From Affinundibacterium nitidum (lineage in GTDB: Bacteria > Pseudomonadota > Gammaproteobacteria > Burkholderiales > Burkholderiaceae_D), in NCBI RefSeq assembly GCF_014284155.1, contig NZ_JACOFZ010000003.1, forward strand, positions 248,001-312,000: DNA of 64,000 nucleotides, given 5' to 3'. The notes under the pieces are model-generated. The model was not told where the DNA came from. It did no database searches and saw nothing but the letters and a program-made list of their open reading frames with translations. Position numbers and translations under genes: made by a program. Position 1 is the first letter of the stretch, and each line of letters begins with the position of its first letter. This document shows, piece after piece, positions 26,347 through 51,104 of the stretch.

Positions 26347-26436
26347 TTTTAACGCCGAAATGACGAGATCGCCATGACGGTCATAATTTTGAGTGAAATA
26401 GTCTTTGGCGATTCTCTGTCGATTGACCTGTTAAGC
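26347..26436 (-). other. attC site, array A
   Basis: TTTTAAC (26347-26353) to GTTAAGC (26430-26436), 90 bp. The inner arms GAGATCGCC and GGCGATTCTC pair. The outer GTTAAGC is complementary to the first 7 bases of the cassette at the attI junction, as for a true cassette. Confidence 0.8.
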
Positions 26437-26437
26437 C

Positions 26438-26989
26438 TCATGCGGATCTCGCCTCAAGAAATTCGTTTGCGAATACTTCTAAGGATGCTTTGGCAGCAGT
26501 ACCCAAGAACACTCCAGATGTGCAACGCCCCACCTTCCTACCCGCTGATCCAACTGGATGCCAGACGCGGAAAAATCCCAATGGGCTACAAAAATTAGAG
26601 GGAAATGAATGTAAGACTGCAAGATTCCCGCCTGGAGGAAGGCCTACCACCGCATTTGATCCATCAGGTAATTCGATGGCGGTGGTAACATGAAAAATGA
26701 AATACGTTCCATGTCCTTGTATGTTGATTGGTAGCCATTCAATTTCGGGAAATTCCGTCATTTTATTTTTTAGCGAAGCCGAAAAAGCGAGCGCATTTGG
26801 GTTGAACAAAATGGGTGTTGCAGGCTGATCAGCAATATGAAGCTTCAAATTGGGCATGGTCCATTGCTCAATTAGCGACAACGGACTACGCAATCGCGGA
26901 TCATCCCAAAGACGCGTGTCATTGTCGAACCAAGCAGGCGCGAAAGAACCGTCAGTATTCGAGCGGATTGATAGTTTGAAAGCGGCCAT
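26438..26989 (-). CDS. Cassette A1: hypothetical, immunity-like protein
   Basis: 183 residues, no signal peptide. Sequence such as IEWLPINIQGHGTYFIFHV followed by a late FLGTAAKASLEVFANEFLE recalls the Imm11/DUF1629 type of immunity protein, in which a paired beta-sheet is followed by a short helix; this similarity is weak. It lies directly between attI-like site A and the attC at 26347, so it is the first cassette of array A and should be transcribed from the Pc promoter there. Confidence 0.6.
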   Translation of the reverse strand: MAAFKLSIRSNTDGSFAPAWFDNDTRLWDDPRLRSPLSLIEQWTMPNLKLHIADQPATPILFNPNALAFSASLKNKMTEFPEIEWLPINIQGHGTYFIFHVTTAIELPDGSNAVVGLPPGGNLAVLHSFPSNFCSPLGFFRVWHPVGSAGRKVGRCTSGVFLGTAAKASLEVFANEFLEARSA

Positions 26990-26996
26990 AGACGAG

Positions 26997-27060
26997 GCTT
27001 AACTGGTTCTAAAGGGAAAGAAACCGAAGTTAACACAAACATGTAAATTGAGCAACGCAG
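26997..27060 (-). other. attI-like site A
   Basis: On the minus strand the site ends ...TTTAGAACCA then GTTAAGC, the GTTRRRY crossover core where cassette A1 joins. The 45 bp before it are nearly identical to sites B (36.0 kb) and C (50.9 kb), and resemble the AAAACAAAGTTAGGC end of attI1. Confidence 0.72.
27027..27055 (-). promoter_or_regulatory. Candidate Pc promoter of array A
   Basis: Minus strand: TTGCTC, 17 bp, TAACTT, with TGT just before the -10. The same arrangement is conserved in the other two attI-like modules and points into the cassettes. Confidence 0.5.
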
Positions 27061-27108
27061 TTTCAAGCTGTTTGTAAGCTCTACTCTGATTGGGCGAATT
27101 TTGTTGAA

Positions 27109-27124
27109 CTGCACAAACATACAG
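27109..27124. promoter_or_regulatory. LexA box beside attI-like site A
   Basis: CTGCACAAACATACAG, fitting CTG-N10-CAG, embedded in a 28-bp perfect-arm palindrome (GTTGAACTG/CAGTTCAAC, 27103-27130). In known integrons a LexA box here represses intI, but no intI follows. Confidence 0.65.
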
Positions 27125-27266
27125 TTCAACATCGGGAACTTCGCATGAGCGTTTCCCCCACCCAATCCAAACCACGATGCCTGATCAATAGCCGTCTACT
27201 AGACTCCACAGAACTTACACTGATGAATTTGATAGGGTGAGTACACGAACAAATTCGAATACAAGA

Positions 27267-30349: not shown

Positions 30350-30881
30350 CAATTAAATTGATAAAGCCGCGGATTTTCCTCTCGTTACCCACGCGGCGGT
30401 CAGCAATATTTTAGCCTTCGGGCTAGAAGCCATTTCACTCGGTAGGTTCGCAATGAAGTTATGCGCCAGCACCGCCCATCCTTTATCAGCGCATCTCAGC
30501 GTACAAAGTCGTAAGAAGAATTCGATCAAGCTCAAGATGAACGATGTACTAGCTTACGATTTTGCCAGCCCAGATCGTTCCTTATTTTGCGGCATCGATC
30601 GCGGCGTGCGTTCAGACGGATGGAAAGACCAGCAAGTACCAAGATAAATTCGCTTTTGGGTCGAAGATTTACAACTACTCTTGAGCCTAGTACAGCGCGG
30701 CCAAGCATTGGCTTATTTGCCCGACTTCGCGCTAAGCGATCCGAATTTGTTTGCGATTGACATTCGATCAAACAATAAAGAATCGAATCAAGATTGCCTT
30801 GAACAATGTTGGCTGGTATGGCGCCCGGCTGTAGCGAGTGGGTGGCAGAAACGTTTTGTTGATCGACTGCATCGTTCATGA
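30350..30881 (+). pseudogene. Decayed copy of the LysR 3' half
   Basis: Positions about 30350-30881 repeat the effector-domain end of the LysR gene at 28547-29064 with very high identity after about 30430. There is no start region or DNA-binding domain. A single A-to-T change creates a TAA in the motif corresponding to APRKIRFW (near 30644), so it cannot encode the full segment. It is a segmental duplication remnant about 1.8 kb downstream of its source. Confidence 0.85.
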
Positions 30882-30892
30882 ATTTGGCGATC

Positions 30893-31390
30893 TCAAAAGC
30901 TTCGAACCCAACGCACCGTAATGCTCTCCGTGCCTTCTTCGTACTTTTGCTCGACCTCAAATACATCGTAGCTCTTATGGACAATGGAAAAAGAGCTTGT
31001 TGTGCCGTCGACGCGTCTCTCGAACTGACCTCGAGCAGTTGCTTTTCTCAAGTCTGCGGCATCTATGTGCTCCCAAAACTCAGAAGCGATTCGATTTGCC
31101 ATCTGAAATACCACTGATTTCTTCGAGGCAAACTTTTGCTTCTTACTAGCAGTAATGGCAAACCCAAGGTGACTGCAACCACCGTAGACCAATAACCACC
31201 GAGTACGGTCTCGCCCTACCCAAGATACCTCCCTCTCTTCGGCATTGACTCGCGCATCTGGCTTGGTCGCGGCGATGGTCTGTAGCTTCTCAAGTTGGTT
31301 GGCTTGATCGTACAAGCAATCTTCACTGGCAGCGTGTGCCGTGATGGGAAGCGAAAACATTAACGCTAACAATACAAAGAATTTGATCAT
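30893..31390 (-). CDS. Secreted hypothetical protein
   Basis: 165 residues with signal peptide (MIKFFVLLALMFSLPITAHA, cleavage AHA-A). Two Cys (EDCLYD, GGCSHLG) may form a disulphide. Helix-strand mix ending YEEGTESITVRWVRSF. No family recognised. Faces the LysR remnant tail to tail, with 11 bp between the two stops. Confidence 0.58.
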   Translation of the reverse strand: MIKFFVLLALMFSLPITAHAASEDCLYDQANQLEKLQTIAATKPDARVNAEEREVSWVGRDRTRWLLVYGGCSHLGFAITASKKQKFASKKSVVFQMANRIASEFWEHIDAADLRKATARGQFERRVDGTTSSFSIVHKSYDVFEVEQKYEEGTESITVRWVRSF

Positions 31391-31444
31391 AAAAGTTAGA
31401 ACACTGGTTACAAGACAGCAAAGCGCTGTAAAACTAAGGGCTGC

Positions 31445-31900
31445 CTAAACACTCTTCACCACTTTAAAGAAACTGGGTTCAATTTCGACAGAGAATGGTT
31501 CGGCCATTTCAACTTGTCGACTCATCCTCAATATTCCACTTTTTTTAATTTTGTAGGGGATATATATAAAGCGAGAGAAACCCTCACTCTCCAATTGGAC
31601 ACGCACACCATCGGGATAGTTTGGGGCGTAGTGCGAGGGAATATTAACGTCTGCAACTAGCGCTGCGCCCAAGATTTCGCCTTTTTGAGCACTAGAGCTA
31701 AACGCTTCAGCCAACAAAAGAAATATCTCTTGAGGTTTTGGATGTTCCTCACCGTTGTCACCCCCTACTGCACAAACCTTTCCATCGGTCGATAAGGTCC
31801 CGCCAAAGGGATAGAATTCACCGGACTTTTCTAGCATCGTGCGCGAAAAATCAATGCAGTGAAGCAGTAACGCGTGTAATTGTTCAGGTGTAGCAGCCAT
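31445..31900 (-). CDS. Hypothetical cytoplasmic protein
   Basis: 151 residues from ATG at 31898-31900 (MAATPEQLHALLLHCIDFSRTMLE). Earlier ATG at 32005 would overlap the preceding gene. Contains EFYPFGGTLSTDGKVCAVGGDNGEEHPKPQEIF, a pattern seen in small proteins annotated only as hypothetical. No attC at either end, so I do not call it a cassette. Confidence 0.55.
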   Translation of the reverse strand: MAATPEQLHALLLHCIDFSRTMLEKSGEFYPFGGTLSTDGKVCAVGGDNGEEHPKPQEIFLLLAEAFSSSAQKGEILGAALVADVNIPSHYAPNYPDGVRVQLESEGFSRFIYIPYKIKKSGILRMSRQVEMAEPFSVEIEPSFFKVVKSV

Positions 31901-31923
31901 AGTGTAGATAAATTTGAGTTGCG

Positions 31924-32715
31924 TTAGGCCTTGTTTTTCGGTCCCTTTAAGCGCCGCCAAACAATCCGGCTTACCCAAATAAACATGAGAATAAAAAATA
32001 TCCAAGGAAGGAGATAGGCAATTCCTGTGATGGCAATCGACACGCCCTGAGATAGATTATTGCCAAAGTCTGACATGGAAATTGAAATGGGATGCCAAAA
32101 CCCTTGATTTTGAACAGAGCCAATGGAAACGGTGAGAATCTGTGTTTCTACACGCTGCATCAATTGTGCATTCTTTCCTGTCGCCGCTTCAAGTTCGGTT
32201 TGCACTTGCGACAGCTCTCTATTTATTTTGATTAAAGCGTCGACATCGTTGTTTGCGCGATTACGTAAAGCTTCAAGTTTTGACCTGTAGTCATTCAACA
32301 TTGTCAGTTTCTTCGCGGTGTCTTCGATAGGCGCAGCTAGATCTTCTGCAGTCGTCGATTGATTTGTGATTTTCGCTTGTTTGCTCAGAGATCCGATAAG
32401 TTTGTGAATGCCCGTCGGTTTGGCGCGAAACTTTAACGACGCAGACGATGAACGTCCAGTTTCGATTCGCGATTCTAAAACGGTGCAGAAATCGCCAGAC
32501 GCCTCACGACAAACTGCCTGCGCTGCCTCGAAAATTTCCCGGATCTTATGCTCGTCGGTGTCTAACTGTATGTGGTGTTGGTATGCCAAGTAGCGAGCAG
32601 CGTTGTTTGCAGAGTTAGCCATTGATTGCCCTGAAGTGGCAACTCCAGTCTCCACGTTCTTGGAGCAGCCTACCACCGCGGACAATATAAATAAAACCAC
32701 CAAAAACCGTTTCAT
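31924..32715 (-). CDS. DUF4349-family lipoprotein
   Basis: About 264 residues from ATG at 32713-32715. Lipobox VVGC follows a short signal (MKRFLVVLFILSAVVGC). The body matches DUF4349: long coiled helices (LTMLNDYRSKLEALRNRANNDVDALIKINRELSQVQTELEAATG) then a C-terminal membrane helix (LLPWIFFILMFIWVSRIVW) and basic tail. The role is unknown; members are envelope proteins. Ends 24 bp upstream of the next gene's start. Confidence 0.75.
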   Translation of the reverse strand: MKRFLVVLFILSAVVGCSKNVETGVATSGQSMANSANNAARYLAYQHHIQLDTDEHKIREIFEAAQAVCREASGDFCTVLESRIETGRSSSASLKFRAKPTGIHKLIGSLSKQAKITNQSTTAEDLAAPIEDTAKKLTMLNDYRSKLEALRNRANNDVDALIKINRELSQVQTELEAATGKNAQLMQRVETQILTVSIGSVQNQGFWHPISISMSDFGNNLSQGVSIAITGIAYLLPWIFFILMFIWVSRIVWRRLKGPKNKA

Positions 32716-32755
32716 GTGTTCTCCAAAAATACTAAAGTTTGGGCGCATAGGCGCC

Positions 32756-32817
32756 GCGTAACAGCATCGTAGGCGTGATAGGCAGCCAAGACACAATTTC
32801 TATCGACTTAGTTGTTC
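32756..32817 (-). other. Possible degenerate attC at the end of array B
   Basis: GCGTAAC (32756-32762) to GTTGTTC (32811-32817), 62 bp, with imperfect pairing of inner arms. The stop of the hydrolase gene lies inside, as in other cassettes. Confidence 0.3.
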
Positions 32818-33327
32818 AAGTAATTTGAAACCATCACTCCAAGCTCCAAATCCACTACTGATGTTTATATGGCCAGCATCACCGATATTTACCAACTTAC
32901 TTCCCCAGTTCGAGGCACACTGCTCTGAAAATTCAATTGAACTATACGGATCATTCGTGCTTGCGACAACCATGCTTGGAAAGTTAAACTTTGTGATCGG
33001 CAAAGGTGAAAAACCGACAGCCGCATCAGGAAAATGACTGCCATCAGGATTTGGCGGCGCAACGAGAAATGCCGCTTTTATTTTTGTATGGCGCGCTGAA
33101 GCCCAATGCGCAATCGTGATACAGGCTAAACTGTGCGCTACGATTACTGCAGAATCACCAGCTTCTATTACGGTATCTTCCAGCACATCAACCCATTCAC
33201 TGCAGACTGGATAATTCCAGTCACGTTGAGGAACACGAACGGCATCAATACCACTTTTTTCCCATAACGATTGCCAGTGCTCCGGGCCTGAATTACCAAT
33301 GCCTGGAAAAATAATGAATTTTGACAT
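32800..33327 (-). CDS. Cassette B6: RBBP9/YdeN-family alpha/beta hydrolase
   Basis: 175 residues, the usual length for the RBBP9/YdeN serine-hydrolase family. Visible are the N-terminal IIFPGIGNSGPEHWQSLWE, the nucleophile elbow VAHSLACI with Ser, the VAPP loop, the late ASTNDPYSS with Asp, and GDAGHIN with catalytic His. The substrate is unknown. It is one of the few cassettes with a recognisable enzyme. It lies after the attC at 33346 and so reads as the last clear cassette of array B. Confidence 0.85.
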   Translation of the reverse strand: MSKFIIFPGIGNSGPEHWQSLWEKSGIDAVRVPQRDWNYPVCSEWVDVLEDTVIEAGDSAVIVAHSLACITIAHWASARHTKIKAAFLVAPPNPDGSHFPDAAVGFSPLPITKFNFPSMVVASTNDPYSSIEFSEQCASNWGSKLVNIGDAGHINISSGFGAWSDGFKLLEQLSR

Positions 33328-33345
33328 CGTTTCCCCTTAAGATGC

Positions 33346-33433
33346 AGATAACGCTGAATAGAAATACGTTCGCAGTCCGATAGATTTTGATAGCTCGGCT
33401 ATTCGCGAGTCATTATCGAAAGTCATGTTAGAC
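33346..33433 (-). other. attC site, array B
   Basis: AGATAAC to GTTAGAC, 88 bp. Belongs to the commonest attC type here (ACGCTGAAT...GAAA near one end, TCGAAAGTCATGTTAG at the other). Confidence 0.8.
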
Positions 33434-33436
33434 ATC

Positions 33437-33802
33437 TTACTCAATTGTTTGCGCATGCCCACAGTTCTCATGAAAAACAAAGTACTGTTTTGCCCGCAAG
33501 AGGTGTGGCGTATTCTCAAACCACCAACTTGCGGCTTCTGGTGCCGATTTCGACAAAAGATCGATTGCCACCTTTGATTCAACAAGGAATCCAGTTTCTC
33601 GTTTTAGTTTTCCACTGAATAGAGCTACCAAACATTCCCAAAAGCCAAGTGGCCCAGCTAGCAATCCTGTGGTTCGAAACTCCAAAGGTTTTGTCGTCGA
33701 TTGAACCAGTGGAATTGACAATCCAACCCACTTCTCACGCACCCACAAAGGGGCTTCCCCTGGAGGTACTTCCGTTATCACTAACTTTAATGTTGATACC
33801 AT
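33437..33802 (-). CDS. Cassette B5: hypothetical protein
   Basis: 121 residues from ATG at 33800-33802; the longer frame would translate the preceding attC. No signal peptide. Sequence like VREKWVGLSIPLVQ and LGFWECLVALFSGKLKRETGFLVESKVAIDLL recurs among integron-cassette hypotheticals, as far as I recall. Function unknown. Confidence 0.6.
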   Translation of the reverse strand: MVSTLKLVITEVPPGEAPLWVREKWVGLSIPLVQSTTKPLEFRTTGLLAGPLGFWECLVALFSGKLKRETGFLVESKVAIDLLSKSAPEAASWWFENTPHLLRAKQYFVFHENCGHAQTIE

Positions 33803-33810
33803 CTTTATAT

Positions 33811-33897
33811 GTCTAATGTAAAGGTGAGGGGCGACAGGCCAGCTCCGCCGACACAGCGTCCCAGCAGCGAAGCCGCGCCTCGACATTATGGTTATGC
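33811..33897 (-). other. attC site, array B
   Basis: GTCTAAT to GTTATGC, 87 bp; the left core is AAT instead of AAC. The stop of the following gene lies in the right core. Confidence 0.65.
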
Positions 33898-34317
33898 ATC
33901 GGCGTATACCTTCAAGAGGCTTTCTTCCCTGCTCTGGGAAGAAATGTGGACTAGCACCGTGCGCTCCAGTTGAACCGTTGGGTGGCGCGCGGAGTTCTTG
34001 GCGAACCAGAAGACTTCCTCAAGAAGCTCGTGTTCATGCCATGTGGTCATCACGAACTTGTCGTCTGGTGCTTCCGCTGGAAGGAATTGATCAATGTTCG
34101 CGAAATCTACTGAGTCGTCCCAAGAGCTGCAATTTGTCCCCCACGCCATCATGTAGAGGCAACCCGAGCGAACCAACCAATCGCTAGCAGAGGCTTGCCA
34201 TTCCGTTGAAACAGGGGCTTCCACGATCACAACCGCGCGATAGGGCGGTGCGGAGCCAACCGCTGGCAACGAAACTCCCGGCTCAAGCCTGATGTACTCG
34301 GCGGTGGATTCAATCAT
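33892..34317 (-). CDS. Cassette B4: hypothetical protein (DUF7684-like)
   Basis: 141 residues, cytoplasmic. Contains YRAVVIVEAPVSTEWQASASDWLVRSGCLYMMAWG and WHEHELLEEVFWFAKNSA, a pattern I associate with the DUF7684 family. Flanked by attC sites at 33811 and 34321. Function unknown. Confidence 0.65.
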   Translation of the reverse strand: MIESTAEYIRLEPGVSLPAVGSAPPYRAVVIVEAPVSTEWQASASDWLVRSGCLYMMAWGTNCSSWDDSVDFANIDQFLPAEAPDDKFVMTTWHEHELLEEVFWFAKNSARHPTVQLERTVLVHISSQSREESLLKVYADA

Positions 34318-34320
34318 GAT

Positions 34321-34413
34321 GCATAACGCTGAGGCGTCGGGATCGCCGCCATCAGAAAATTAATAAACAAAGAAATCACCATTGGCGATTCCATGAAGAC
34401 CGTCGTGTTAGTT
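34321..34413 (-). other. attC site, array B
   Basis: GCATAAC to GTTAGTT, 93 bp, with inner arms GGATCGCC/GGCGATTCC pairing. Confidence 0.8.
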
Positions 34414-34419
34414 TTGTAT

Positions 34420-34851
34420 TTACCATACCTTCCACCATGGTTTTTTAGTATTCACTCCAACCGAGACGGGAGGTTGTTCATCAACTGCATTCCCGTCAAC
34501 ACCGTACAACTCACCTTCATCTCCTTGAACCTTTGCAGAGAGTGCTTTGGCAATCGACCACATTTTTTTCAGAATTTCAATGTCTGGATTCTTTACAACT
34601 ATGTTTCCTCTTCGAAAATCAAACCATGCCATATTTCCATTTTCTTGATGTCCCGAATAGCCAAGCCAAACGGACAATCCTGCACTTTCGACTCGCAAAG
34701 TATCGCCCGAATTGCTCATTGCTTCAGCAAATCTGTCAAGACGCATTTCAGCATCGCCAGTTACATAAGCAATCCATTCCGCGAGCTCGATTTCTGATCC
34801 TTCGTCGTCGAACCACAGATTTTTTCTGGTGATATGAATGTCGTAGCCCAT
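34420..34851 (-). CDS. Cassette B3: hypothetical protein
   Basis: 143 residues starting MGYDIHITRK, a motif common in small hypothetical proteins of mobile DNA. Alternating acidic helices and strands (AWFDFRRGNIVVKNPDIEILKKMWSIA); ends KPWWKVW. Cytoplasmic, function unknown, possibly an immunity-type protein (speculative). Confidence 0.6.
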   Translation of the reverse strand: MGYDIHITRKNLWFDDEGSEIELAEWIAYVTGDAEMRLDRFAEAMSNSGDTLRVESAGLSVWLGYSGHQENGNMAWFDFRRGNIVVKNPDIEILKKMWSIAKALSAKVQGDEGELYGVDGNAVDEQPPVSVGVNTKKPWWKVW

Positions 34852-34863
34852 AAGTCCTCTGAA

Positions 34864-34985: not shown

Positions 34986-34995
34986 CTATTGCCCG

Positions 34996-35499: not shown

Positions 35500-35513
35500 A
35501 AAGTTTTAACGTT

Positions 35514-42294: not shown

Positions 42295-42327
42295 AGAAAC
42301 TCCTTGATGCATATCGTTTAATTCTCA

Positions 42328-42702
42328 CTACGTAGCGTACGAATAAGGTTCGACCTGTAGGTACGGTTGCACCCACAATCGAAAACCATAGGGGGCTGCT
42401 GACGATTCGTCGTAGCGGCCAGCGAACGCCTTAGGAGCCGAGAACTCCATGCAGCGGCCGCGCTTGTCTTGAACAACGCGAACTGCTTGACACTCAAGCA
42501 GCTGAAGGTTGATGAACGGCTCGGACTGGTGCCCGCAACTGATCTTCAAAGAAACGTCTCCATCACAGGGATAGACGGCGAGTTCCAGCCGGACACCACT
42601 CCGTTCAAGTCGATACAAGTAAGACGTTCCGTACTCGCCCTCAACAGGAACGACTTCCAGCAGATCGAGAACATCGACGGGATTCCATGCTAGCGCTGGC
42701 AT
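42328..42702 (-). CDS. Cassette C13, first gene: hypothetical protein
   Basis: 124 residues, beta-rich and cytoplasmic (VEGEYGTSYLYRLERSGVRLELAVYPCDGDVSLKI). It ends 34 bp before the following gene's start, with no recombination site between. Family not recognised. Confidence 0.6.
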   Translation of the reverse strand: MPALAWNPVDVLDLLEVVPVEGEYGTSYLYRLERSGVRLELAVYPCDGDVSLKISCGHQSEPFINLQLLECQAVRVVQDKRGRCMEFSAPKAFAGRYDESSAAPYGFRLWVQPYLQVEPYSYAT

Positions 42703-42719
42703 ATGGGGCCTCTCAATGA

Positions 42720-42774
42720 AGGATAAAGCCTCACGCGGTTCCCGCTTTGTAGAAGGGGATTGTTCGCGTTACGC
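42720..42774 (-). other. Possible short attC, array C
   Basis: Degenerate left core (GGATAAAG) to GTTACGC (42768-42774). The arms CACGCGG and CCCGC-type are weak. The following gene's stop lies in the right core, as in other cassettes. Confidence 0.35.
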
Positions 42775-43047
42775 ACGGAAGGCCTGCGCAATGGACATAG
42801 CAATTGCAACTGCACCTAACCAGGCACCGACGCGCTTGATTAGCGCGGTGTCTAATGTTCTCGCATTGGCTGTTTGGCTATAACTGAAGCCAACTACAAA
42901 CGCATGGGCTGGAAGAACCACCACAAGCAGGAATGCCACCACCAAACTCATGGTGTCGTTGCCAAAGTGGGACCAAAGTAAGGGCATGACTATCCCTGTG
43001 AAGGCCCCTGCAATTGCCGCACTGATCGGTGTAGGTGTGATTTTCAC
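42769..43047 (-). CDS. Cassette C12: small membrane protein
   Basis: 92 residues with three hydrophobic helices (ISAAIAGAFTGIVMPLL; MSLVVAFLLVVVLPAHAFVVGF; VGAWLGAVAIAMSIAQAF). No family recognised. The 87 bp upstream of its ATG before the next attC are unusually long for this array and may hold an own promoter. Confidence 0.58.
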   Translation of the reverse strand: MKITPTPISAAIAGAFTGIVMPLLWSHFGNDTMSLVVAFLLVVVLPAHAFVVGFSYSQTANARTLDTALIKRVGAWLGAVAIAMSIAQAFRA

Positions 43048-43134
43048 GGTGTCGTATCCATCTTTCTTGAGAACGAAAAGCTAGGGTTGTGTGCGCTGCT
43101 ACTGAGAATGAGATGGCACATTTGAATGCTTGAG

Positions 43135-43224
43135 GCCTGACGCAAAGTTGAAAGGCATGCGCGCCAATCTATAAATTTTAACAGAGCGCTTCATCGTGCA
43201 TCATTTTTGAATGTCATGTTAGGT
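43135..43224 (-). other. attC site, array C
   Basis: GCCTGAC (AAC mutated to GAC) to GTTAGGT, 90 bp, common type. Confidence 0.68.
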
Positions 43225-43227
43225 CAG

Positions 43228-43647
43228 TCACCAATTCTTCGTAATATCAACTGAATTTCCGTCGAGATTTAATTGATACGATTCGAATCCCTGCTTATCC
43301 GTCAAAAGTTTAAGTTCATTCCCATTTGAAAATCGGAACACAATTTCGTTATCAGGCAATTTTTCAAAGGCAGTAATTACTTGCCCAAGCAGTACAGTTA
43401 AACAACCACTTTTTTCGCCTAAATCCTCGTTGGATGTCTTTTGGGTACACCGGTCTAAATCCCACAATTCATAGCCAGATTCGATGTCAATTGCAGCACC
43501 TTTCTCCCATTTATCAAACAACTCCGCTCCCATCATGCGTTTATAGAAATTAATTCGAACATGTTGACTACCAATACATATTTGAGTCACCTCTTGCCCG
43601 ATGAAACTGTTTAAGGGAAAGTCTGATGGGATCGGGAAGCCTGCCAT
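43228..43647 (-). CDS. Cassette C11: hypothetical protein (DUF6188-like)
   Basis: 139 residues. The pattern LNSFIGQEVTQICIGSQHVRINF and IDIESGYELWD, with a late SYQLNLDGNSVDI, is that of the small DUF6188-type proteins. Cytoplasmic, function unknown. Confidence 0.62.
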   Translation of the reverse strand: MAGFPIPSDFPLNSFIGQEVTQICIGSQHVRINFYKRMMGAELFDKWEKGAAIDIESGYELWDLDRCTQKTSNEDLGEKSGCLTVLLGQVITAFEKLPDNEIVFRFSNGNELKLLTDKQGFESYQLNLDGNSVDITKNW

Positions 43648-43655
43648 TTTTTTAA

Positions 43656-43744
43656 ACCTAACACTGAATTGAAATGCGCGCGAAAATTAGGAAAATTTGT
43701 GGATGCGCAAAATCCGCCCGACATTTTCAAATGAACTGTTGTGC
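43656..43744 (-). other. attC site, array C
   Basis: ACCTAAC to GTTGTGC, 89 bp; common type with a diverged middle. Confidence 0.75.
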
Positions 43745-43745
43745 A

Positions 43746-44003
43746 TTACTTTTGCGATGCCTTATTTTTCAATTGAATATCAAAACCAAATAATGCAGCT
43801 GTAAGAAAAGTTATCCAAAAACCGGCCCCGATAATGACATAAGGGCCAAACCAATAGGACATTATTTGATGTAGAACGCCGTCATGGTTTAAAGTTCCGA
43901 TAGTCAATAGAGTAACGCACAATAAACAAGCTAATAGACTGATTATCACCATGCTAGTGGTTACTGATTTTGATGTATGTTGTGTTTTCTCTTGAATATC
44001 CAT
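43746..44003 (-). CDS. Cassette C10: two-helix membrane protein
   Basis: 85 residues; helices at about 17-38 (MVIISLLACLLCVTLLTIG) and 50-73 (FGPYVIIGAGFWITFLTAALFG); charged tails. Unknown function. Confidence 0.58.
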   Translation of the reverse strand: MDIQEKTQHTSKSVTTSMVIISLLACLLCVTLLTIGTLNHDGVLHQIMSYWFGPYVIIGAGFWITFLTAALFGFDIQLKNKASQK

Positions 44004-44041
44004 CTTGGAACTCCGTTCGATATGAACTTGATGTGATCGAT

Positions 44042-44131
44042 GCCTAACGTAACGGTGAGCGGAGGGCCGTCCACAAATTTATAAAATATGCAGCCGCATC
44101 GCGGCCAGTCCGATCGACCATCAAGTTAGGG
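44042..44131 (-). other. attC site, array C
   Basis: GCCTAAC to GTTAGGG, 90 bp, the clearest member of the second type. Confidence 0.82.
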
Positions 44132-44500
44132 AATACTTGGATCATCGTTCTCTTTTATGATTTCAATGTGCTGCTTCACTTCTTTCTCTGATGCCCAATT
44201 TCGAAACTCATCTTGAGTAAGGAGCCGAATTACCTCGGGTGAATAAACAACTTTTGCACGCCAATTTGTTATCCAGTCTGATCGTATAATCATTTTAGAA
44301 AATTTCTTTGAGCCGCGATGTCTGCCAACCACAACAATTTTCTCGTAGCCATCTCCCCACTTTACAGGCAAACAGAACACTTTTGTCCCCGCCGAAAAGT
44401 GCTTGGTGCCAGCTCTTTCTTCGAGCCCATTTGGACCATAAAAGCGTTTATCTTTTATGTTCCCAACAAGACACCACTGTGATGAAATTTGGTTCGCCAA
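44126..44500 (-). CDS. Cassette C9: hypothetical protein
   Basis: 124 residues, basic, cytoplasmic. WCLVGNIKDKRFYGPNGLEERAGTKHF followed by KVFCLPVKWGDGYEKIVVVGRHRGSKKF: a small beta-barrel-like fold, common among cassette hypotheticals. Stop inside the attC. Confidence 0.62.
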   Translation of the reverse strand: MANQISSQWCLVGNIKDKRFYGPNGLEERAGTKHFSAGTKVFCLPVKWGDGYEKIVVVGRHRGSKKFSKMIIRSDWITNWRAKVVYSPEVIRLLTQDEFRNWASEKEVKQHIEIIKENDDPSIP

Positions 44501-44507
44501 TGAAGGT

Positions 44508-44597
44508 CCCTAACGCTGAATTGAAAGGCCCGCGCACCGATCAAAAAAGTTTGTAAAGGCGCTTAGTCGCGCGTCATTTTCGAATGCTATGTTAGTC
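44508..44597 (-). other. attC site, array C
   Basis: CCCTAAC to GTTAGTC, 90 bp; a good example of the common type. Folding the ends pairs CTAAC, ATT-GAAA and CGCGC with one unpaired base. Confidence 0.85.
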
Positions 44598-44602
44598 ACG
44601 CT

Positions 44603-45148
44603 TCACCATTTAGAAAGCTCATAGACAACTTCATCTTCAGAAGGATCGTCAGGCAGAAATCCGCAAAAAGTTTCAAGCAGTACCGCGTGCTGGCTGTTTT
44701 GCGACGCAATGGCCACTTCTTCGAAATCATTTAAGGACAGCATTTTATATGCCTCAAGTGCATCGGAAACTTTAAGGACATATCCCGGAAAATTCGATAC
44801 CCATGAAGTTGTCCCATCAAACGAAACTCCATTACCGCCCCCAAGTACAAAAACGTATTCGTCCTCTGGTAGCTCCGATGCCCAGCGAAAGAAATGCTCT
44901 AGTGCTTTTTCTTTGGAAGAGGTCATCATTGTTTTTGTGCCGACCGTGGGCAAATCGATAAGCTTTTGAAGCTCAATGGATTGATGAATAATTGGCGAAA
45001 AAAATTCTGAGAGCTCAGGATGATAGATTACCTTTGCTCCCTCAAAGATCGTCTTCAACTTTCCAGGCAACGATGACACAAATTCACTTGCAGCATTTCG
45101 CTGAGAATTTTTTGTTGCAAGATCGAAGAGCTTTCTATTCGTGTGCAT
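44603..45148 (-). CDS. Cassette C8: hypothetical protein
   Basis: 181 residues from ATG at 45146-45148. Contains DEYVFVLGGGNGVSFDGTTSWV, a glycine-rich loop, and a C-terminal QHAVLLETFCGFLPDDPSEDE. Acidic, cytoplasmic. Not recognised. Confidence 0.6.
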   Translation of the reverse strand: MHTNRKLFDLATKNSQRNAASEFVSSLPGKLKTIFEGAKVIYHPELSEFFSPIIHQSIELQKLIDLPTVGTKTMMTSSKEKALEHFFRWASELPEDEYVFVLGGGNGVSFDGTTSWVSNFPGYVLKVSDALEAYKMLSLNDFEEVAIASQNSQHAVLLETFCGFLPDDPSEDEVVYELSKW

Positions 45149-45154
45149 CTTAGT

Positions 45155-45247
45155 GACTAATACCCAAATATGGGGCCGCAATGTAGGCGCGAAGCGCCGG
45201 AATGAAGGTCCCAGCCGCTCAGCGGCGACATTATTTGTTTGTTATGT
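45155..45247 (-). other. attC site, array C
   Basis: GACTAAT to GTTATGT, 93 bp, with palindromic GGCGCGAAGCGCC inside. Confidence 0.72.
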
Positions 45248-45254
45248 GTTTAAT

Positions 45255-45593
45255 TTAGGATTTCCATCTCAGTTCGGAGTTGAGAGCTGAAAAATTAGCA
45301 CTGAAAGACTCGATAAATTCACAGATTTCCGGATCTGGCTTTTTAATACATTTGAACTCGACAATACTCTTTGCATTTTTATTATGCTGGTCCGAGTTGA
45401 GATAACCTAGATATGTTTCGAGCTTTTCAGAAATTAAATGTCGGATTTCATCCGTATTTTCCAGGTGCTTAATTACTACTATTGGCAATAGAACAGCGCC
45501 ATCTTTGTAATCGATTTTCATATCTATTTGATCTAATCTTTGAATTGCTGGGCCGCTTAAAAATTTGCTGACCACCTGCATTAACAATCCCAT
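45255..45593 (-). CDS. Cassette C7: hypothetical protein
   Basis: 112 residues, mostly helical (LISEKLETYLGYLNSDQHNKNA). No recognisable domain. Confidence 0.58.
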   Translation of the reverse strand: MGLLMQVVSKFLSGPAIQRLDQIDMKIDYKDGAVLLPIVVIKHLENTDEIRHLISEKLETYLGYLNSDQHNKNAKSIVEFKCIKKPDPEICEFIESFSANFSALNSELRWKS

Positions 45594-45613
45594 GGTTTAC
45601 TCCTGGTTAAAAC

Positions 45614-45703
45614 AAATAACGCCGAATTGAAAGGCGTGCACACCTAACAGTAAGTTTTAAACAAGCGCTTGCTCGCGCGTCATTTTCGAATGTCATGTTA
45701 GCG
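45614..45703 (-). other. attC site, array C
   Basis: AAATAAC to GTTAGCG, 90 bp, common type. Confidence 0.82.
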
Positions 45704-46126
45704 ACTCATCTTTCCCAGTTTAACCAGCAACTCATAATACAATTCACCTTCAGTTTCATAAATTGGAATAATAGCGCCAGTCTCTTTACTAACAAAAAAT
45801 ATCCCAAACGTCATTGGACGTGGGGTGACTACGCCACATCCACCAACTTTAACGTCCAGCAACGGTTTAGGTTTTCCAACAAACACTTTCGTGACGAGCA
45901 GATTCAAATTTTGTGTTTGAGTTACATCAGTAAACCATCGTTGATTGTCACCTCTCGATAGACTCTTTAGCCTATCTTTCTCATATCCAATGAGATGAAC
46001 TCCGGAAACTTCACCGATAAAAATTTCAGAATACTTCTCCCAATTTTCGTCGGGCATTAATTTCGCCATGCATGCGTGTGCTTGGCCGTAGAGCATAAGT
46101 ACAATAGCAAAGATTATTTTTCTCAT
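45698..46126 (-). CDS. Cassette C6: secreted hypothetical protein
   Basis: 142 residues with signal peptide (MRKIIFAIVLMLYGQAHA). Motif ACMAKLMPDENWEKYSEIFIGEVSGVHLIG and a late VGGCGVVTPRP resemble the small Cys-containing secreted proteins often annotated hypothetical in gammaproteobacteria. Probably periplasmic. Confidence 0.6.
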   Translation of the reverse strand: MRKIIFAIVLMLYGQAHACMAKLMPDENWEKYSEIFIGEVSGVHLIGYEKDRLKSLSRGDNQRWFTDVTQTQNLNLLVTKVFVGKPKPLLDVKVGGCGVVTPRPMTFGIFFVSKETGAIIPIYETEGELYYELLVKLGKMSR

Positions 46127-46134
46127 TTTTTGAT

Positions 46135-46191
46135 CGCTAACGTTTGAGTTGTGTGGCGGCGAAGCCGTCTGAAACGGACGACCAGTTATAT
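46135..46191 (-). other. attC site, array C (short)
   Basis: CGCTAAC to GTTATAT, 57 bp, close to the short attC type of class 1 integron cassettes; hairpin GTGTGGCGGC/GCCGTC visible. Confidence 0.78.
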
Positions 46192-46194
46192 GAT

Positions 46195-46623
46195 TTACGC
46201 ATCGAAATATCCATCTCTTGCCACGCCGATAGCTTCAAAATATCTTCCGTTTTCGTCACTTTCGTTTTCTGGCAGAATACCCCGCCAAAGACTGATTTGC
46301 AATTTCGGATAAATATAGCTATATCCTGTTTCAGTATCGTCTTCTTCTAACTCGCCATATTTCGACATCAGCGCCACTGCTTCGATTGCCGTGATTCCAT
46401 GAAGATTCTGCCCATCAAAATCTGCGATAAATTTCTCAGATCGAGCCATCTCAATAAATTCAACAGTTCCTGCTTTGTCAAAATCAATCATCAAACCAGA
46501 TAGGAAACATTCACGATTTCCGTTTCTGTACTCAGGCTCCCCTAGAGCAGCATACACACTAGCACGCGCCATGTTGAACTCGACTGGGCCAACGCCAACG
46601 AGCGGCCGAATTACGAATTTCAT
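46195..46623 (-). CDS. Cassette C5: hypothetical protein
   Basis: 142 residues starting MKFVIRPLVGVGPVEFNMARASVYAALGEPEYR, a pattern widespread in cassette and mobile-region proteins annotated only as hypothetical. Acidic, cytoplasmic. Confidence 0.65.
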   Translation of the reverse strand: MKFVIRPLVGVGPVEFNMARASVYAALGEPEYRNGNRECFLSGLMIDFDKAGTVEFIEMARSEKFIADFDGQNLHGITAIEAVALMSKYGELEEDDTETGYSYIYPKLQISLWRGILPENESDENGRYFEAIGVARDGYFDA

Positions 46624-46639
46624 CGCCGAGCTTCCTTAC

Positions 46640-46729
46640 ATATAACGTTGATTTGAAAGGCGCGCACGCCGATTTAAAATTTTACAAGAAGTGCTCAATC
46701 GCGCGTCATTTTCGAAAGTCATGTTAAGA
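46640..46729 (-). other. attC site, array C
   Basis: ATATAAC to GTTAAGA, 90 bp, common type. Confidence 0.82.
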
Positions 46730-47107
46730 GGCATGGTTACGCTCCAAGACTTTTGCAATTAAAGGCTGTGTATGCAGAACCTCAGGACTGAGGCGCATAT
46801 CGTCACCTGAATGATGGAACTCGCCTTCGTCAAATGCTTGATAGACCGCAAATAAGATAGGGGGCACTTCATTGTCGGTTACTGCCCAAAAGTCAGGCGA
46901 AGTCGCAAGCAAGAAAAGTGAGTTCATAATGCAGCCCCCGCAATCATATGTCATCCTTCCGCCGGCATATTCGCGGGCAACGTGAAGCGCCACCATGTCG
47001 CAACACGCAAGCAACGACAGTTCGACCGATTCAGCAAAGAACCTCAGCTCTCGAACTTTAAGAGAACTGTTTTCCGCGGCATTGAGAATGTCAACGAGTT
47101 CGATGAT
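46724..47107 (-). CDS. Cassette C4: hypothetical protein with unclear start
   Basis: The first conventional candidate start is a TTG at 47014 (96 residues), but the same frame stays open and protein-like up to a stop at 47117 (IIELVDILNAAENSSLKVRELRFFAESVELSL). A GAGG sits just before an ATC/ATC pair near 47107. I therefore extend the gene there and suppose a rare start codon or a lost ATG. Sequence includes CxxC-like YDCGGCIMNSLF. Function unknown. Confidence 0.5.
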   Translation of the reverse strand: MIELVDILNAAENSSLKVRELRFFAESVELSLLACCDMVALHVAREYAGGRMTYDCGGCIMNSLFLLATSPDFWAVTDNEVPPILFAVYQAFDEGEFHHSGDDMRLSPEVLHTQPLIAKVLERNHAS

Positions 47108-47114
47108 TTTTGCC

Positions 47115-47192
47115 TCTTAACGCTAAATTGAGCGGCACGCGCTTGCGCGTCCGGCGGAACGAAGTGGAGCGAACTCGAATGTCATGTTAGTG
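47115..47192 (-). other. attC site, array C
   Basis: TCTTAAC to GTTAGTG, 78 bp, third type; strong inner palindrome GGCACGCGCTTGCGCGTCC. Confidence 0.82.
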
Positions 47193-47795
47193 CATCCCAT
47201 TGTTTTGTGAGAAGAGACGTTCATACTCTTTCCCTTTCTCCGGTTGCCCCGATGCCATATAACAGGCCGCAAGCTCACCGTATAAAAAGTAAGAAGATGG
47301 GGCTTCATTGACAGATATTTGAAACATCTTGGCCGCGTCATCATACTTTTCTTCGTCGCGGAAAATATATCCTAGATCTTCAGCAATCGCGCTCTTTCTG
47401 GCGGAATTGGTCAATCCAACTTTGAGAATATCAATCCCAATAGCGGGATTTATCTTTGAGTAAAACAACTCATAAACGCCAAAGCAATCGATTGGTACTG
47501 CACAGATGATGTCACCGTTGAAGTTAAACGAATAGTCAACTCTAAGGTTTACTCCATCAAAAAAGTATACCAAATCGTTGATTCGTTCCGGTAATGATAT
47601 GTCCAAGTAACAGTCTTGGACTTTACCATCAGGAAGTATATTTTTAGCTTTCACGATATAGAATCCTTCCCCCTCCATCAAAATATCGAGAGTAAGAGGT
47701 TCGACTTCCCAGTTCGAGTAATCGTTTTCTTCAGATCCGATCACGCGAAAGATGCTCGTTTCAGGACATTCGATGAAGGCTTGAATAAGTTTCAT
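47187..47795 (-). CDS. Cassette C3: TPR-like hypothetical protein
   Basis: 202 residues from ATG at 47793-47795; a longer frame would include the attC. The C-terminal third has TPR-type helices (AEDLGYIFRDEEKYDDAAKMFQISVNEAPSSYFLYGELAACYMASGQPEKGKEYERLF). The N-terminal part is beta-rich. Scaffold or partner-binding protein, specifics unknown. Confidence 0.68.
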   Translation of the reverse strand: MKLIQAFIECPETSIFRVIGSEENDYSNWEVEPLTLDILMEGEGFYIVKAKNILPDGKVQDCYLDISLPERINDLVYFFDGVNLRVDYSFNFNGDIICAVPIDCFGVYELFYSKINPAIGIDILKVGLTNSARKSAIAEDLGYIFRDEEKYDDAAKMFQISVNEAPSSYFLYGELAACYMASGQPEKGKEYERLFSQNNGMH

Positions 47796-47825
47796 TTGAT
47801 CGTTTTTGGAGATACTAGAACCTAG

Positions 47826-47900
47826 CACTAACGTTTTAGTTGTGCGGCACCCCGAAGGGGGAACCGCGTAGCGGTGTCCGCTACCAATGCCTTGTTGCAC
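47826..47900 (-). other. attC site, array C (copy 1 of the transposase-cassette attC)
   Basis: CACTAAC to GTTGCAC, 75 bp. Identical to the site at 49357 except for the outer 4 bases (CACT versus GTGC), because those belong to the next cassette, as integron recombination predicts. Confidence 0.85.
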
Positions 47901-49360
47901 GGCGCGTCTACAGCTGGTTGCAAATTAGTTATGGAGATTTTAAGAGTTATCAGAACGAGAAGCAATCTGATTTATTCTTAAAATCAAAAGAATGTTGACG
48001 ATCAAGTGGGCGATAGTTGGCGAGCATTGGAACAATATTCTCTGATGGAAATGAAAACGCGATAAACGTGGAAGTTGAGACGAGTTGAGATAAGCACGAA
48101 TCAACAAAGTGCTACACATGTTGACCTCTTAATGGGCGCGGTCGTGGTGGATCATGATGCGGAGCGATGTTACGGACATGGCCGATAGTCGCACCACACA
48201 AAGTACAAACATGCGCAGTGGGTTGGGTGACGTGTTTCGCGTAATACGCTTGCCACGTCAATGGTTCAAGCTTGGTGATGGGCGCTTGACGGAATACGAT
48301 ACGTGCCAAATTCAATCGTGCTGTTTTACGCGGCGCGTACAAACCATAACCGCGCACCGTGTGTTTGCCTGGTTCGGGTACATGTTGCAACACCAGTTTC
48401 AGAAAACGTTCCGGCGTGTGCGCCGCGCAAACCGAGCGATACGAAGTAGCGCTATCACCATGCGGTGTATACGTAAAATTGACCTGCTGATGCGTGAGCC
48501 GAATCTGACCATCATGTAGCGGTCCACCGCGAACATAACGTGCCAAATAATGCACCAAGCCTTGACCATGATCGTAGCGGGTTTCAATGCGCACATTCCA
48601 CTTCTTACGAAACAGGTGGTTCAAGCACGAATGCATGCGTTCATAACTCACATCATCGGGTAAGCGCAGCGTTTGCCGCTCGATGGCCCGTCGCAACAGC
48701 GCGAGTAATTTACCGCGAAATTTGGTCATCAGTACCCGTGCGGGTAATAAACAACTGCCTTTCGGTTGCTGCCAACCTGCGTCAGAGAGACCGCCATCGG
48801 TGATCAAACAATGCAAGTGCGGATGCAAAGAGAGGGAGCGTCCCCAGGTATGCAGAGCCATGAGATAACCAGGCTCAGCGCCAGCGAGTCGCCGCTCATC
48901 GTTAAGTAATTCTTGCAGACATTGACTGGCACATTGAAACAGTAATTCCATCATGGCGGCGGTGTTGAATTGCCATAACGTGTTTAATTCATGGGGGATG
49001 GTGAAGATGATGTGATAGTGCGGGCAATGCAGTAAGCGTTCGCGCTGTTGCTGCAACCAACGCGCCATCTGCAAGCCTTTACATTGTGGACAGCTACGAT
49101 GCTTACAGGAGTTATACCAGACCCGTTCAATATGGCCTTGAGGGCAAGCCTGCACATGACCACCTAATGCAGCAGTACGACAGCGAGAAAGTTTATTCGC
49201 AGCGCGATACCAATGCGGCGGTAAGCGTTCAGTAGCAGCCAACTGCGAGAAATGGCGCTGAAAAAGACGCTGCAATGTACTGGCCATTGGTCACCTCTCT
49301 TAACGCAAAGAGCCAGTCAGCCGGCGCCTTACGCGTCCTCCCGCGCAGCGGGACTAGTGC
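47830..49360 (-). mobile_element. Transposase-carrying cassette, copy 1
   Basis: First of two identical 1531-bp tandem units. The unit runs from the attC crossover to the next crossover and contains one IS91-like transposase gene. Confidence 0.88.
48112..49287 (-). CDS. IS91-family Y2 transposase, copy 1 (cassette C2)
   Basis: 391 residues, usual for the family. The N-terminal zinc-binding region has CPQGH (C48) and SCKHRSCPQC (C61, C66, C69). The HUH motif is H155-P-H157-L-H159 and the tyrosine pair is Y247-LAR-Y251 (YxxxY), both typical of rolling-circle IS91 transposases. Start ATG preceded by GAGAGGTGACC. The gene sits wholly inside an integron cassette and seems intact. Function: nicking and strand transfer at the element's ori/ter ends; whether those ends exist inside the cassette is unclear. 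Confidence 0.88.
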   Translation of the reverse strand: MASTLQRLFQRHFSQLAATERLPPHWYRAANKLSRCRTAALGGHVQACPQGHIERVWYNSCKHRSCPQCKGLQMARWLQQQRERLLHCPHYHIIFTIPHELNTLWQFNTAAMMELLFQCASQCLQELLNDERRLAGAEPGYLMALHTWGRSLSLHPHLHCLITDGGLSDAGWQQPKGSCLLPARVLMTKFRGKLLALLRRAIERQTLRLPDDVSYERMHSCLNHLFRKKWNVRIETRYDHGQGLVHYLARYVRGGPLHDGQIRLTHQQVNFTYTPHGDSATSYRSVCAAHTPERFLKLVLQHVPEPGKHTVRGYGLYAPRKTARLNLARIVFRQAPITKLEPLTWQAYYAKHVTQPTAHVCTLCGATIGHVRNIAPHHDPPRPRPLRGQHV

Positions 49361-49431
49361 AACGTTTTAGTTGTGCGGCACCCCGAAGGGGGAACCGCGT
49401 AGCGGTGTCCGCTACCAATGCCTTGTTGCAC
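49357..49431 (-). other. attC site between the two transposase cassettes
   Basis: GTGCAAC to GTTGCAC, 75 bp, perfectly complementary outer cores. Confidence 0.88.
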
Positions 49432-50891
49432 GGCGCGTCTACAGCTGGTTGCAAATTAGTTATGGAGATTTTAAGAGTTATCAGAACGAGAAGCAATCTG
49501 ATTTATTCTTAAAATCAAAAGAATGTTGACGATCAAGTGGGCGATAGTTGGCGAGCATTGGAACAATATTCTCTGATGGAAATGAAAACGCGATAAACGT
49601 GGAAGTTGAGACGAGTTGAGATAAGCACGAATCAACAAAGTGCTACACATGTTGACCTCTTAATGGGCGCGGTCGTGGTGGATCATGATGCGGAGCGATG
49701 TTACGGACATGGCCGATAGTCGCACCACACAAAGTACAAACATGCGCAGTGGGTTGGGTGACGTGTTTCGCGTAATACGCTTGCCACGTCAATGGTTCAA
49801 GCTTGGTGATGGGCGCTTGACGGAATACGATACGTGCCAAATTCAATCGTGCTGTTTTACGCGGCGCGTACAAACCATAACCGCGCACCGTGTGTTTGCC
49901 TGGTTCGGGTACATGTTGCAACACCAGTTTCAGAAAACGTTCCGGCGTGTGCGCCGCGCAAACCGAGCGATACGAAGTAGCGCTATCACCATGCGGTGTA
50001 TACGTAAAATTGACCTGCTGATGCGTGAGCCGAATCTGACCATCATGTAGCGGTCCACCGCGAACATAACGTGCCAAATAATGCACCAAGCCTTGACCAT
50101 GATCGTAGCGGGTTTCAATGCGCACATTCCACTTCTTACGAAACAGGTGGTTCAAGCACGAATGCATGCGTTCATAACTCACATCATCGGGTAAGCGCAG
50201 CGTTTGCCGCTCGATGGCCCGTCGCAACAGCGCGAGTAATTTACCGCGAAATTTGGTCATCAGTACCCGTGCGGGTAATAAACAACTGCCTTTCGGTTGC
50301 TGCCAACCTGCGTCAGAGAGACCGCCATCGGTGATCAAACAATGCAAGTGCGGATGCAAAGAGAGGGAGCGTCCCCAGGTATGCAGAGCCATGAGATAAC
50401 CAGGCTCAGCGCCAGCGAGTCGCCGCTCATCGTTAAGTAATTCTTGCAGACATTGACTGGCACATTGAAACAGTAATTCCATCATGGCGGCGGTGTTGAA
50501 TTGCCATAACGTGTTTAATTCATGGGGGATGGTGAAGATGATGTGATAGTGCGGGCAATGCAGTAAGCGTTCGCGCTGTTGCTGCAACCAACGCGCCATC
50601 TGCAAGCCTTTACATTGTGGACAGCTACGATGCTTACAGGAGTTATACCAGACCCGTTCAATATGGCCTTGAGGGCAAGCCTGCACATGACCACCTAATG
50701 CAGCAGTACGACAGCGAGAAAGTTTATTCGCAGCGCGATACCAATGCGGCGGTAAGCGTTCAGTAGCAGCCAACTGCGAGAAATGGCGCTGAAAAAGACG
50801 CTGCAATGTACTGGCCATTGGTCACCTCTCTTAACGCAAAGAGCCAGTCAGCCGGCGCCTTACGCGTCCTCCCGCGCAGCGGGACTAGTGC
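49361..50891 (-). mobile_element. Transposase-carrying cassette, copy 2
   Basis: Second identical 1531-bp unit, next to attI C. The duplicate boundary is AAC/GTT, the cassette recombination point, so this is integron-type duplication. Confidence 0.88.
49643..50818 (-). CDS. IS91-family Y2 transposase, copy 2 (cassette C1)
   Basis: Same 391-residue protein as copy 1 (no difference seen): C48 and C61/C66/C69 zinc ligands, HUH at 155-159, Y247/Y251. It lies directly behind attI C, the position of the most recently integrated cassette, about 70 bp from the conserved Pc. Confidence 0.88.
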   Translation of the reverse strand: MASTLQRLFQRHFSQLAATERLPPHWYRAANKLSRCRTAALGGHVQACPQGHIERVWYNSCKHRSCPQCKGLQMARWLQQQRERLLHCPHYHIIFTIPHELNTLWQFNTAAMMELLFQCASQCLQELLNDERRLAGAEPGYLMALHTWGRSLSLHPHLHCLITDGGLSDAGWQQPKGSCLLPARVLMTKFRGKLLALLRRAIERQTLRLPDDVSYERMHSCLNHLFRKKWNVRIETRYDHGQGLVHYLARYVRGGPLHDGQIRLTHQQVNFTYTPHGDSATSYRSVCAAHTPERFLKLVLQHVPEPGKHTVRGYGLYAPRKTARLNLARIVFRQAPITKLEPLTWQAYYAKHVTQPTAHVCTLCGATIGHVRNIAPHHDPPRPRPLRGQHV

Positions 50892-50953
50892 AACTTGTTT
50901 TAAAGTGAAAGAAACCGAAGTTAACACAAACATGCAAATTGAGCAACGCGGTT
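50888..50953 (-). other. attI-like site C
   Basis: Minus strand ends TTTAAAACAA then GTTGCAC. Nearly identical over 60 bp to site B and about 80% to site A. Confidence 0.78.
50918..50946 (-). promoter_or_regulatory. Candidate Pc promoter of array C
   Basis: TTGCTC, 17 bp, TAACTT on the minus strand, aimed at cassette C1. Confidence 0.5.
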
Positions 50954-50999
50954 TCAATTGGCTCGAAAGCCTTATGGTGCTTGGGTCTATTTTGTTAAA

Positions 51000-51015
51000 C
51001 TGTACAAATATACAG
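51000..51015. promoter_or_regulatory. LexA box beside attI-like site C
   Basis: CTGTACAAATATACAG fits CTGT-N8-ACAG exactly. It is within GTTAAACTG/CAGTTCAAC arms, homologous to the box at 27109. No integrase gene follows on the plus strand. Confidence 0.75.
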
Positions 51016-51104
51016 TTCAACAGCGAGAACATGGTTTTTGCCATTTTCCGATCACACCCAAACGACTATTCCTGCTCAATAGCAATCCTCCTCACCTAGC
51101 CAGA

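Follow-up and report, generated by a model that had tools for sequence, protein, structure and literature searches.

Integrons typically carry one attI site near the integrase gene, and attI sites are poorly described and go undetected outside class 1, according to the accessible text of the IntegronFinder 2.0 paper (PMC9024848). The stretch analyzed here is a 64,000-nucleotide part of the genome of Affinundibacterium nitidum, a relative of Undibacterium (the window; contig NZ_JACOFZ010000003.1, positions 248,001 to 312,000), in which three related attI-like modules, m1, m2 and m3, were located at 27.0, 36.0 and 50.9 kb on the minus strand, each heading its own cassette array, as the initial annotation had described. 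Our analysis suggests, at a probability of roughly 60%, that these modules are part of a set of attI sites with a candidate cassette promoter (Pc), termed attI-Pc platforms, that are dispersed over chromosomes and were loaded with cassettes in trans, largely by one integrase that has since been lost from this genome.

The window shares with sedentary chromosomal integrons an attI homologous to intI-linked sites, a Pc-like sequence, attC arrays and a LexA box at the former intI promoter. It differs from them in that several attI sites occur per genome, while intI is missing both from this genome and from the side of 45 of the 47 strong modules defined below; neither the window nor the genome has an IntI above cut-off next to an attI. 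The window also resembles the clusters of attC sites lacking integrases (CALINs) of PMC9024848, which are attC arrays without an integrase gene. With at least two attC sites and no nearby integrase, arrays 2 and 3 fall into this class, while array 1 has a single attC match. As far as the accessible text goes, the difference is that each window array opens with an attI and a promoter candidate; since attI sites outside class 1 go undetected there, cases such as the window would be counted as plain CALINs. The Xanthomonas CALINs away from ilvD (PMC12444791) offer a further parallel, with a conserved integrase home locus and arrays at other conserved loci, and are described as mobilisable in trans; in contrast to the window, no attI is mentioned at those arrays in the portion of the paper available. 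In Delta-attI-type cassettes and the attI1-ORF-attI1 arrangement, as presented in the accessible part of PMC12901181, an attI lies at a second place and recombines there with IntI1. That attI replaces the attC of a cassette in a mobile integron, whereas the platforms described here lie at separate chromosomal loci, and within the window the attI precedes first cassettes that have an attC at their end. Insertion at attG, as summarized in the same text, likewise places cassettes outside an integron, but at a degenerate genomic site rather than at an attI. A partial literature search, with most subscription journals outside its reach, gave no description of a chromosome with several attI-Pc platforms; judged by titles, it returned no paper on Undibacterium integrons and nothing relevant on multiple or orphan attI sites.

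Identity of the modules as attI sites

Comparison with related genomes placed the module next to an intact intI in two congeners, U. macrobrachii (G002) and an Oxalobacteraceae metagenome-assembled genome (MAG; G008), and m3 is homologous to the attI adjoining these genes. In both congeners the core is located about 130 bp from the IntI match, with the LexA-type palindrome GTTATACTGTATATTTATACAGTATAAC in between; a weak third match to an attI model (24.6 bits) was found 93 bp from IntI in G062. Because two congeners hold the module next to an intact intI, the modules are regarded as attI sites, an assignment supported by sequence homology. The module end, CTTTAAAACAAG followed by TT, is also similar to attI1 (L box CCCTAAA; AAACAAAGTTRRRY) as given in the accessible text of PMC12901181.

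The mutual identity of the three modules is 77-88% and spans 110-192 bp, more than the 45-60 bp originally assigned to them. The junction was initially described as an AAAACAA-like sequence joined to a GTTRRRY core. The core of m3 lies outside this consensus (Table 1), and m1 ends in AGAACCAG rather than in AAAACAA. Similarly, the promoter candidate TTGCTC-17-TAACTT was said to be common to the modules, which is accurate for m1 and m3; m2 has TTGCTA as its -35 candidate, and the spacing of 17 and TAACTT occur in all three. As TTGNNN-17-TAACTT is largely kept across the module alignment, it is the likely Pc candidate, although promoter activity would be a prediction from sequence. The initial annotation makes no mention of the LexA-box-like sequence of m3, recognized as such from its letters; the one of m1 is degenerate and none is present in m2.

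When the 34-base module core was searched with up to three mismatches, six matches were obtained in this genome, compared with none for the pattern read backwards. A scan of the window against Rfam at gathering thresholds gave no match. The other copies of the module in this genome also precede cassette-like open reading frames (ORFs), which argues against an unrelated repeat family that also occurs away from cassettes.

Orphan modules across Undibacterium and their cassettes

The genome-wide search for further attI modules brought the total in this genome to six strong ones, half of them in the window and half on contig C11, where one follows glmS and another an 819-aa gene. (The names glmS, gltB, groES/groEL and SNF2-like are presumed, having been recognized from sequence.) Across the genus Undibacterium, the attI model detected modules of at least 40 bits (strong modules) in 12 of 44 genomes, for a total of 47. 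U. flavidum accounts for 11 of these, and 20 had served to build the model; the stricter filters of this search lost weak matches. An intact IntI adjoins only two of the 47. IntI above cut-off was likewise found in 12 of the 44 genomes, and five of the 12 module-bearing genomes have none (G000, G024, G025, G031 and G034; G025 is 73% complete). The core pattern matched in 10 of 60 genomes, all within the genus, and in none of the 24 others of the order. A scan with a degenerate core, using one genome per species, returned 16 stretches, all from Undibacterium or Oxalobacteraceae MAGs, and a plasmid collection contained no module match. The genes adjoining the modules differ between most loci examined. 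The glmS locus is common to 4 of 13 genomes compared (decayed in two), the gltB locus to 5 of 11, and further loci are also shared across species; since different species have several loci in common, much of the dispersal appears to be old. An empty site that would fix the left insertion boundary was not found by eye in the glmS and gltB flanks of module-free species.

Traces of intI were sought in up to 1.5 kb of upstream sequence, available for 42 of the 47 modules (three with a shorter stretch of 311-1207 bp). IntI coding similarity was present upstream of four, namely two intact genes, one fragment and one pseudogene (U. flavidum C13, with a stop and an internal deletion). For the remaining 38, no significant trace was detected by sensitive tblastn, and three upstream matches at E values of 0.26-0.40 are at chance level, given 0.53 for a shuffled control. 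The idea that the opening codons of intI survive in m1 and m3 was dropped, as the m1 match (E = 0.40) was close to that control. Eight orphan modules could be aligned as DNA with an intact integron (E up to 0.1). In seven of them the alignment ended at positions 97-109, 1-13 bp short of the start codon at position 110, while the eighth ended at 74. A spreading module and independent decay had both been offered as origins for the modules; the missing traces in 38 of 42 and the shared end just before the start codon in seven of eight fit the former better.

Many orphans occur in two forms. One carries the LexA box (m3, G017:C113 and others; degenerate in m1), and the other, type B, has the outer arms GTTATACC-N12-GGTATAAC (m4, G017:C235, G025, G031:C27 and others), a derived dyad that is common to several loci. 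We read the arms as matching a -35 and a -10 of the former intI promoter. Deep branches of the module tree are weakly supported, several inner nodes having 29-61%, and a single origin of type B is therefore unproven.

At all three window modules, the junction and the outer 7-mer of the first attC are exact complements, as had been noted at the outset, and this is expected for a cassette inserted at that site. Of 33 modules examined across the genus, eight were dropped because of N, short sequence or the lack of GTT at the expected place; among the 25 usable ones, 16 have an exact R'' partner within 2.3 kb that is followed by GTT, compared with 2.1 (sd 1.3, maximum 8) in 2000 shuffled pairings. 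First cassettes thus fit their own junctions, and it would follow that loading took place at the sites; the insertion of cassettes at orphan modules is supported at the level of sequence. In U. macrobrachii, the first 201-202 bp of one palindromic element lead at three attI sites, one intI-linked and two orphan, with 99-100% identity. The IS91-type cassette copies of array 3 are also nearly identical to a cassette at an intI-linked, different attI of the sister genome G017 (98.7% over 555 bp and 99.8% over 537 bp).

An approximately 305-bp element (L065:7925-8126, L156:5324-5525, L152:6158-6358 and L148:9615-9816), whose inverted ends are similar and which contains a LexA-box-like sequence, was observed exactly at attI in two species; further copies are located at other places in arrays.

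The missing integrase and competing explanations

In agreement with the lack of an integrase gene reported initially, the TIGR02249 profile found no integron integrase above cut-off in the whole genome (99.69% complete); the best score, 104.8 against a cut-off of 265 bits, belongs to a tyrosine recombinase beside an IS91-type gene. The suggestion that an integrase elsewhere serves the modules has to be qualified in that such a gene is no longer in this genome. One intI remnant exists, on contig C22. The array there (L014/L080) has the remnant, a LexA box and a different attI (AAATAAAC followed by GTTATAC), and two stretches of 384-433 bp recur, at 92-97% identity, in the arrays of C22 and C43. 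On contig C65 (L015), GC-rich attC-like minus-strand matches are located near the gene for a 382-aa tyrosine recombinase. Partial IntI matches were observed at G002:C3:240915, G022:C156 and G029:C51, each covering approximately residues 1-130 of the profile in open frames of 149-194 aa.

A candidate home locus for the integrase lies near groES, which was found in 11 of 12 genomes searched. Eight of the 12 IntI-bearing genomes were checked, and intI lies near groES in seven (G002, G008, G033, G017, G010, G061 and G060), the exception being G009, in which the two are on different contigs. The groES region of this genome aligns with that of the sister genome at 95% until 65 bp before the IntI match; 41 bp further on, the alignment is regained within an IS91-type cassette, at about 58% of the length of its gene, and is followed by the end of this cassette and further attC matches. 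The home locus here lacks intI together with its attI, and the first cassette is without its 5' half; the sister genome keeps intI near groES, and the gap is probably a deletion.

Together these observations suggest the following sequence of events. The modules would consist of an attI, a Pc candidate and a remnant of the intI promoter without intI, and would belong to an orphan platform family dispersed over Undibacterium chromosomes. Each platform may have received its cassettes through ordinary attI x attC recombination, with the integrase of one home locus near groES probably acting largely in trans. In this genome that locus would have lost intI together with its attI and half of the first cassette, leaving six platforms stranded with their arrays and promoter-like sequence. 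A more far-reaching version is put forward tentatively, at somewhat less than even odds. In it, the attI-Pc module would be a separate unit that disperses and has its boundary at the intI start codon; one integrase would become a distributed system, loading many chromosomal ports with cassettes and expressing them there, and these ports would persist after the integrase is gone.

Several observations weigh against trans loading of dispersed platforms. The home integrase of the sister genome has a different attI (ATATCTAG followed by TT) and is only 60-62% identical to the integrases adjoining matching attI sites, and for these reasons it may not use the module sites; IntI enzymes are reported to favour their cognate attI. 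In the 3 kb downstream of 42 modules, the covariance model detected a same-strand attC in just 22 cases and an opposite-strand one in none; m3 is one of those missed, as its IS91-type cassettes have an attC unlike the model. G010:C87 and G034:C1 have neither an R'' partner nor an attC match, and the partner at G034:C9 fits in 6 of 7 bases only. Two of the three U. macrobrachii element copies run into N in a draft assembly. At gltB the core is clearly more conserved than its flanks, at glmS partly so, and no such difference was seen at the remaining loci compared. Recombination by IntI at these sites is a prediction from the geometry of the junctions.

Alternatively, the modules may have arisen from complete integrons that were duplicated or transferred to many loci and each lost intI, with arrays loaded earlier in cis. 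IntI remnants adjoin two modules, one on C13 of U. flavidum and one on C84 of U. seohonense, and so decay also happens; the C22 remnant, albeit with a different attI, and the LexA box still present in m3 point in the same direction, and integrase loss is common, with nearly one third of intI genes being pseudogenes in the accessible text of PMC2426708. Nevertheless, we consider repeated decay unlikely as the general origin, given that intI traces above chance level are lacking at 38 of 42 modules, that random decay is not expected to repeat a boundary 1-13 bp before the start codon in seven of eight cases, and that the type B dyad is common to several loci, even if the tree gives a single origin little support.

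Tandem or segmental duplication of a flanking gene end with its attI and cassettes would assign no special role to the module or to an integrase acting in trans. Four modules of U. flavidum C92 have in common 516-656 bp that include the module and the end of an SNF2-like gene, and their left ends differ. Because these copies bring pieces of flanking genes, plain or segmental duplication contributes locally, and this limits the reading of a spreading module. The LysR piece duplicated at array 2 is in line with duplication, and so is the uniform orientation in each of the seven clusters that strong modules form within 30 kb. As an overall explanation it is improbable, since neighbour genes are unlike between most loci examined and the match of first cassettes to their own junctions in 16 of 25 modules indicates loading on site. 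Least probable by far is that IS91-type first cassettes copied the adjacent attI elsewhere by one-ended rolling-circle transposition. IS91 and ISCR elements are capable of one-ended transfer, and the known IS91-type cassette start follows m3, m4, m6, G017:C235 and G010:C84, but this start was not seen at the other module junctions compared, a comparison that did not extend to a wider search for IS91 genes beside modules.

The palindromic sequence TGGGGTCAYYCA was observed at the left ends of several duplicated units in U. flavidum C92 (L143/L144). As a transposon end it was rejected: exact matches are absent from the window and present in 8 of 182 loci, mostly of U. flavidum C92.

Cassette arrays of the window and their significance

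The features of the window are listed in Table 1. Behind each module come small ORFs of its own strand, separated by attC sites. A regular-expression and folding search for attC could not discriminate between strands and was replaced by intergenic reading and a covariance model built from ten window attC sites, with a covariation of 0.280 compared with 0.109 in shuffles (0/500). At E values up to 5, the model recognized 15 attC sites in the window, all on the minus strand and within the arrays; ten of the 15 are its own building members, and it also detects attC sites in arrays outside its training set. The covarying pairs and the model matches identify the arrays as attC arrays with palindromic structure, and further sites in array 3 were recognized by eye. 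Among the 28 cassette ORFs of arrays 1-3 (IS91-type gene excluded), few gave Pfam matches above the curated cut-off, namely DUF7684, serine hydrolase and DUF4349.

Table 1. Positions of modules, arrays, attC sites and neighbouring genes in the window
Feature	Positions	Strand	Remarks
m1 attI-Pc module	27001..27131	-	crossover G at 27003; core GTTAAGC; degenerate upstream LexA box
m2 attI-Pc module	36032..36141	-	crossover G at 36034; core GTTAGGT; LexA box lost
m3 attI-Pc module	50892..51022	-	crossover G at 50894; core GTTGCAC; LexA-box-like CTGTACAAATATACAG
Array 1	24750..27003	-	ORFs 26438-26989, 26101-26322 and 24887-25972 (possibly no cassette); attC 26347-26436, covariance model 70.8 bits
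Array 2	30893..36034	-	about 9 cassette ORFs, running from 35609-36073 (as listed) to 30893-31390
Array 2 attC (covariance model)	35504-35614, 34864-34985, 34321-34413, 33346-33433	-	
Array 2 attC (by eye)	33811-33897		
Array 3	38700..50894	-	about 20 cassette ORFs
Array 3 attC (covariance model), first half	47115-47192, 46640-46729, 45614-45703, 44508-44597, 44042-44131	-	
Array 3 attC (covariance model), rest	43656-43744, 43135-43224, 41947-42024, 39092-39181, 40624-40713	-	40624-40713 weak
IS91-type transposase gene, first cassette of array 3	49643..50818	-	Y2_Tnp and zinc-binding domain (Pfam); attC 49357-49431 by eye
Second tandem copy of IS91-type cassette	48112..49287	-	99.87% identical over 1542 bp; attC 47900 to about 47826 by eye
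Duplicated 3' piece of LysR gene 28057-29064	30366..30887	+	93%; abuts distal end of array 2
Left neighbour, NHL-repeat protein gene	22504..24744	+	left edge of the 26-kb stretch absent from congeners
Right neighbour, LysR gene	51105..52028	-	right edge of the stretch absent from congeners

The stretch from 24.75 to 51.1 kb sits between two genes that are spaced 1.1-3.5 kb apart in G002, G008 and G060. At the same locus the sister genome has one module and reshuffled cassettes, with the penultimate cassette of array 3 adjoining the attI and the junction bases altered (core CTTGGTT). IS91-type (Y2/HUH) transposase genes carried as cassettes with attC-like ends were observed at 48112-49287 and 49643-50818 of the window and at L021:3072-5107; such cassettes stand in tandem at m3, at m4, at m6 together with a tyrosine recombinase gene, and at the intI-linked attI of G017. 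A repeat of about 100 bp (ends ggacttacg...cgtaagtcc) at 52166-52266 has many copies over many genomes of the genus, partly in tandem.

The textbook integron is a unit of one integrase, one attI, one promoter and one array. In Undibacterium, the platform for cassette capture and expression appears to have been multiplied and separated from the enzyme across the genus, and some arrays classed as CALINs may accordingly be stranded or trans-served platforms. Multiplied platforms would put several cassettes first in line for expression simultaneously, and the natural variants of the site make the specificity of IntI for attI directly testable.

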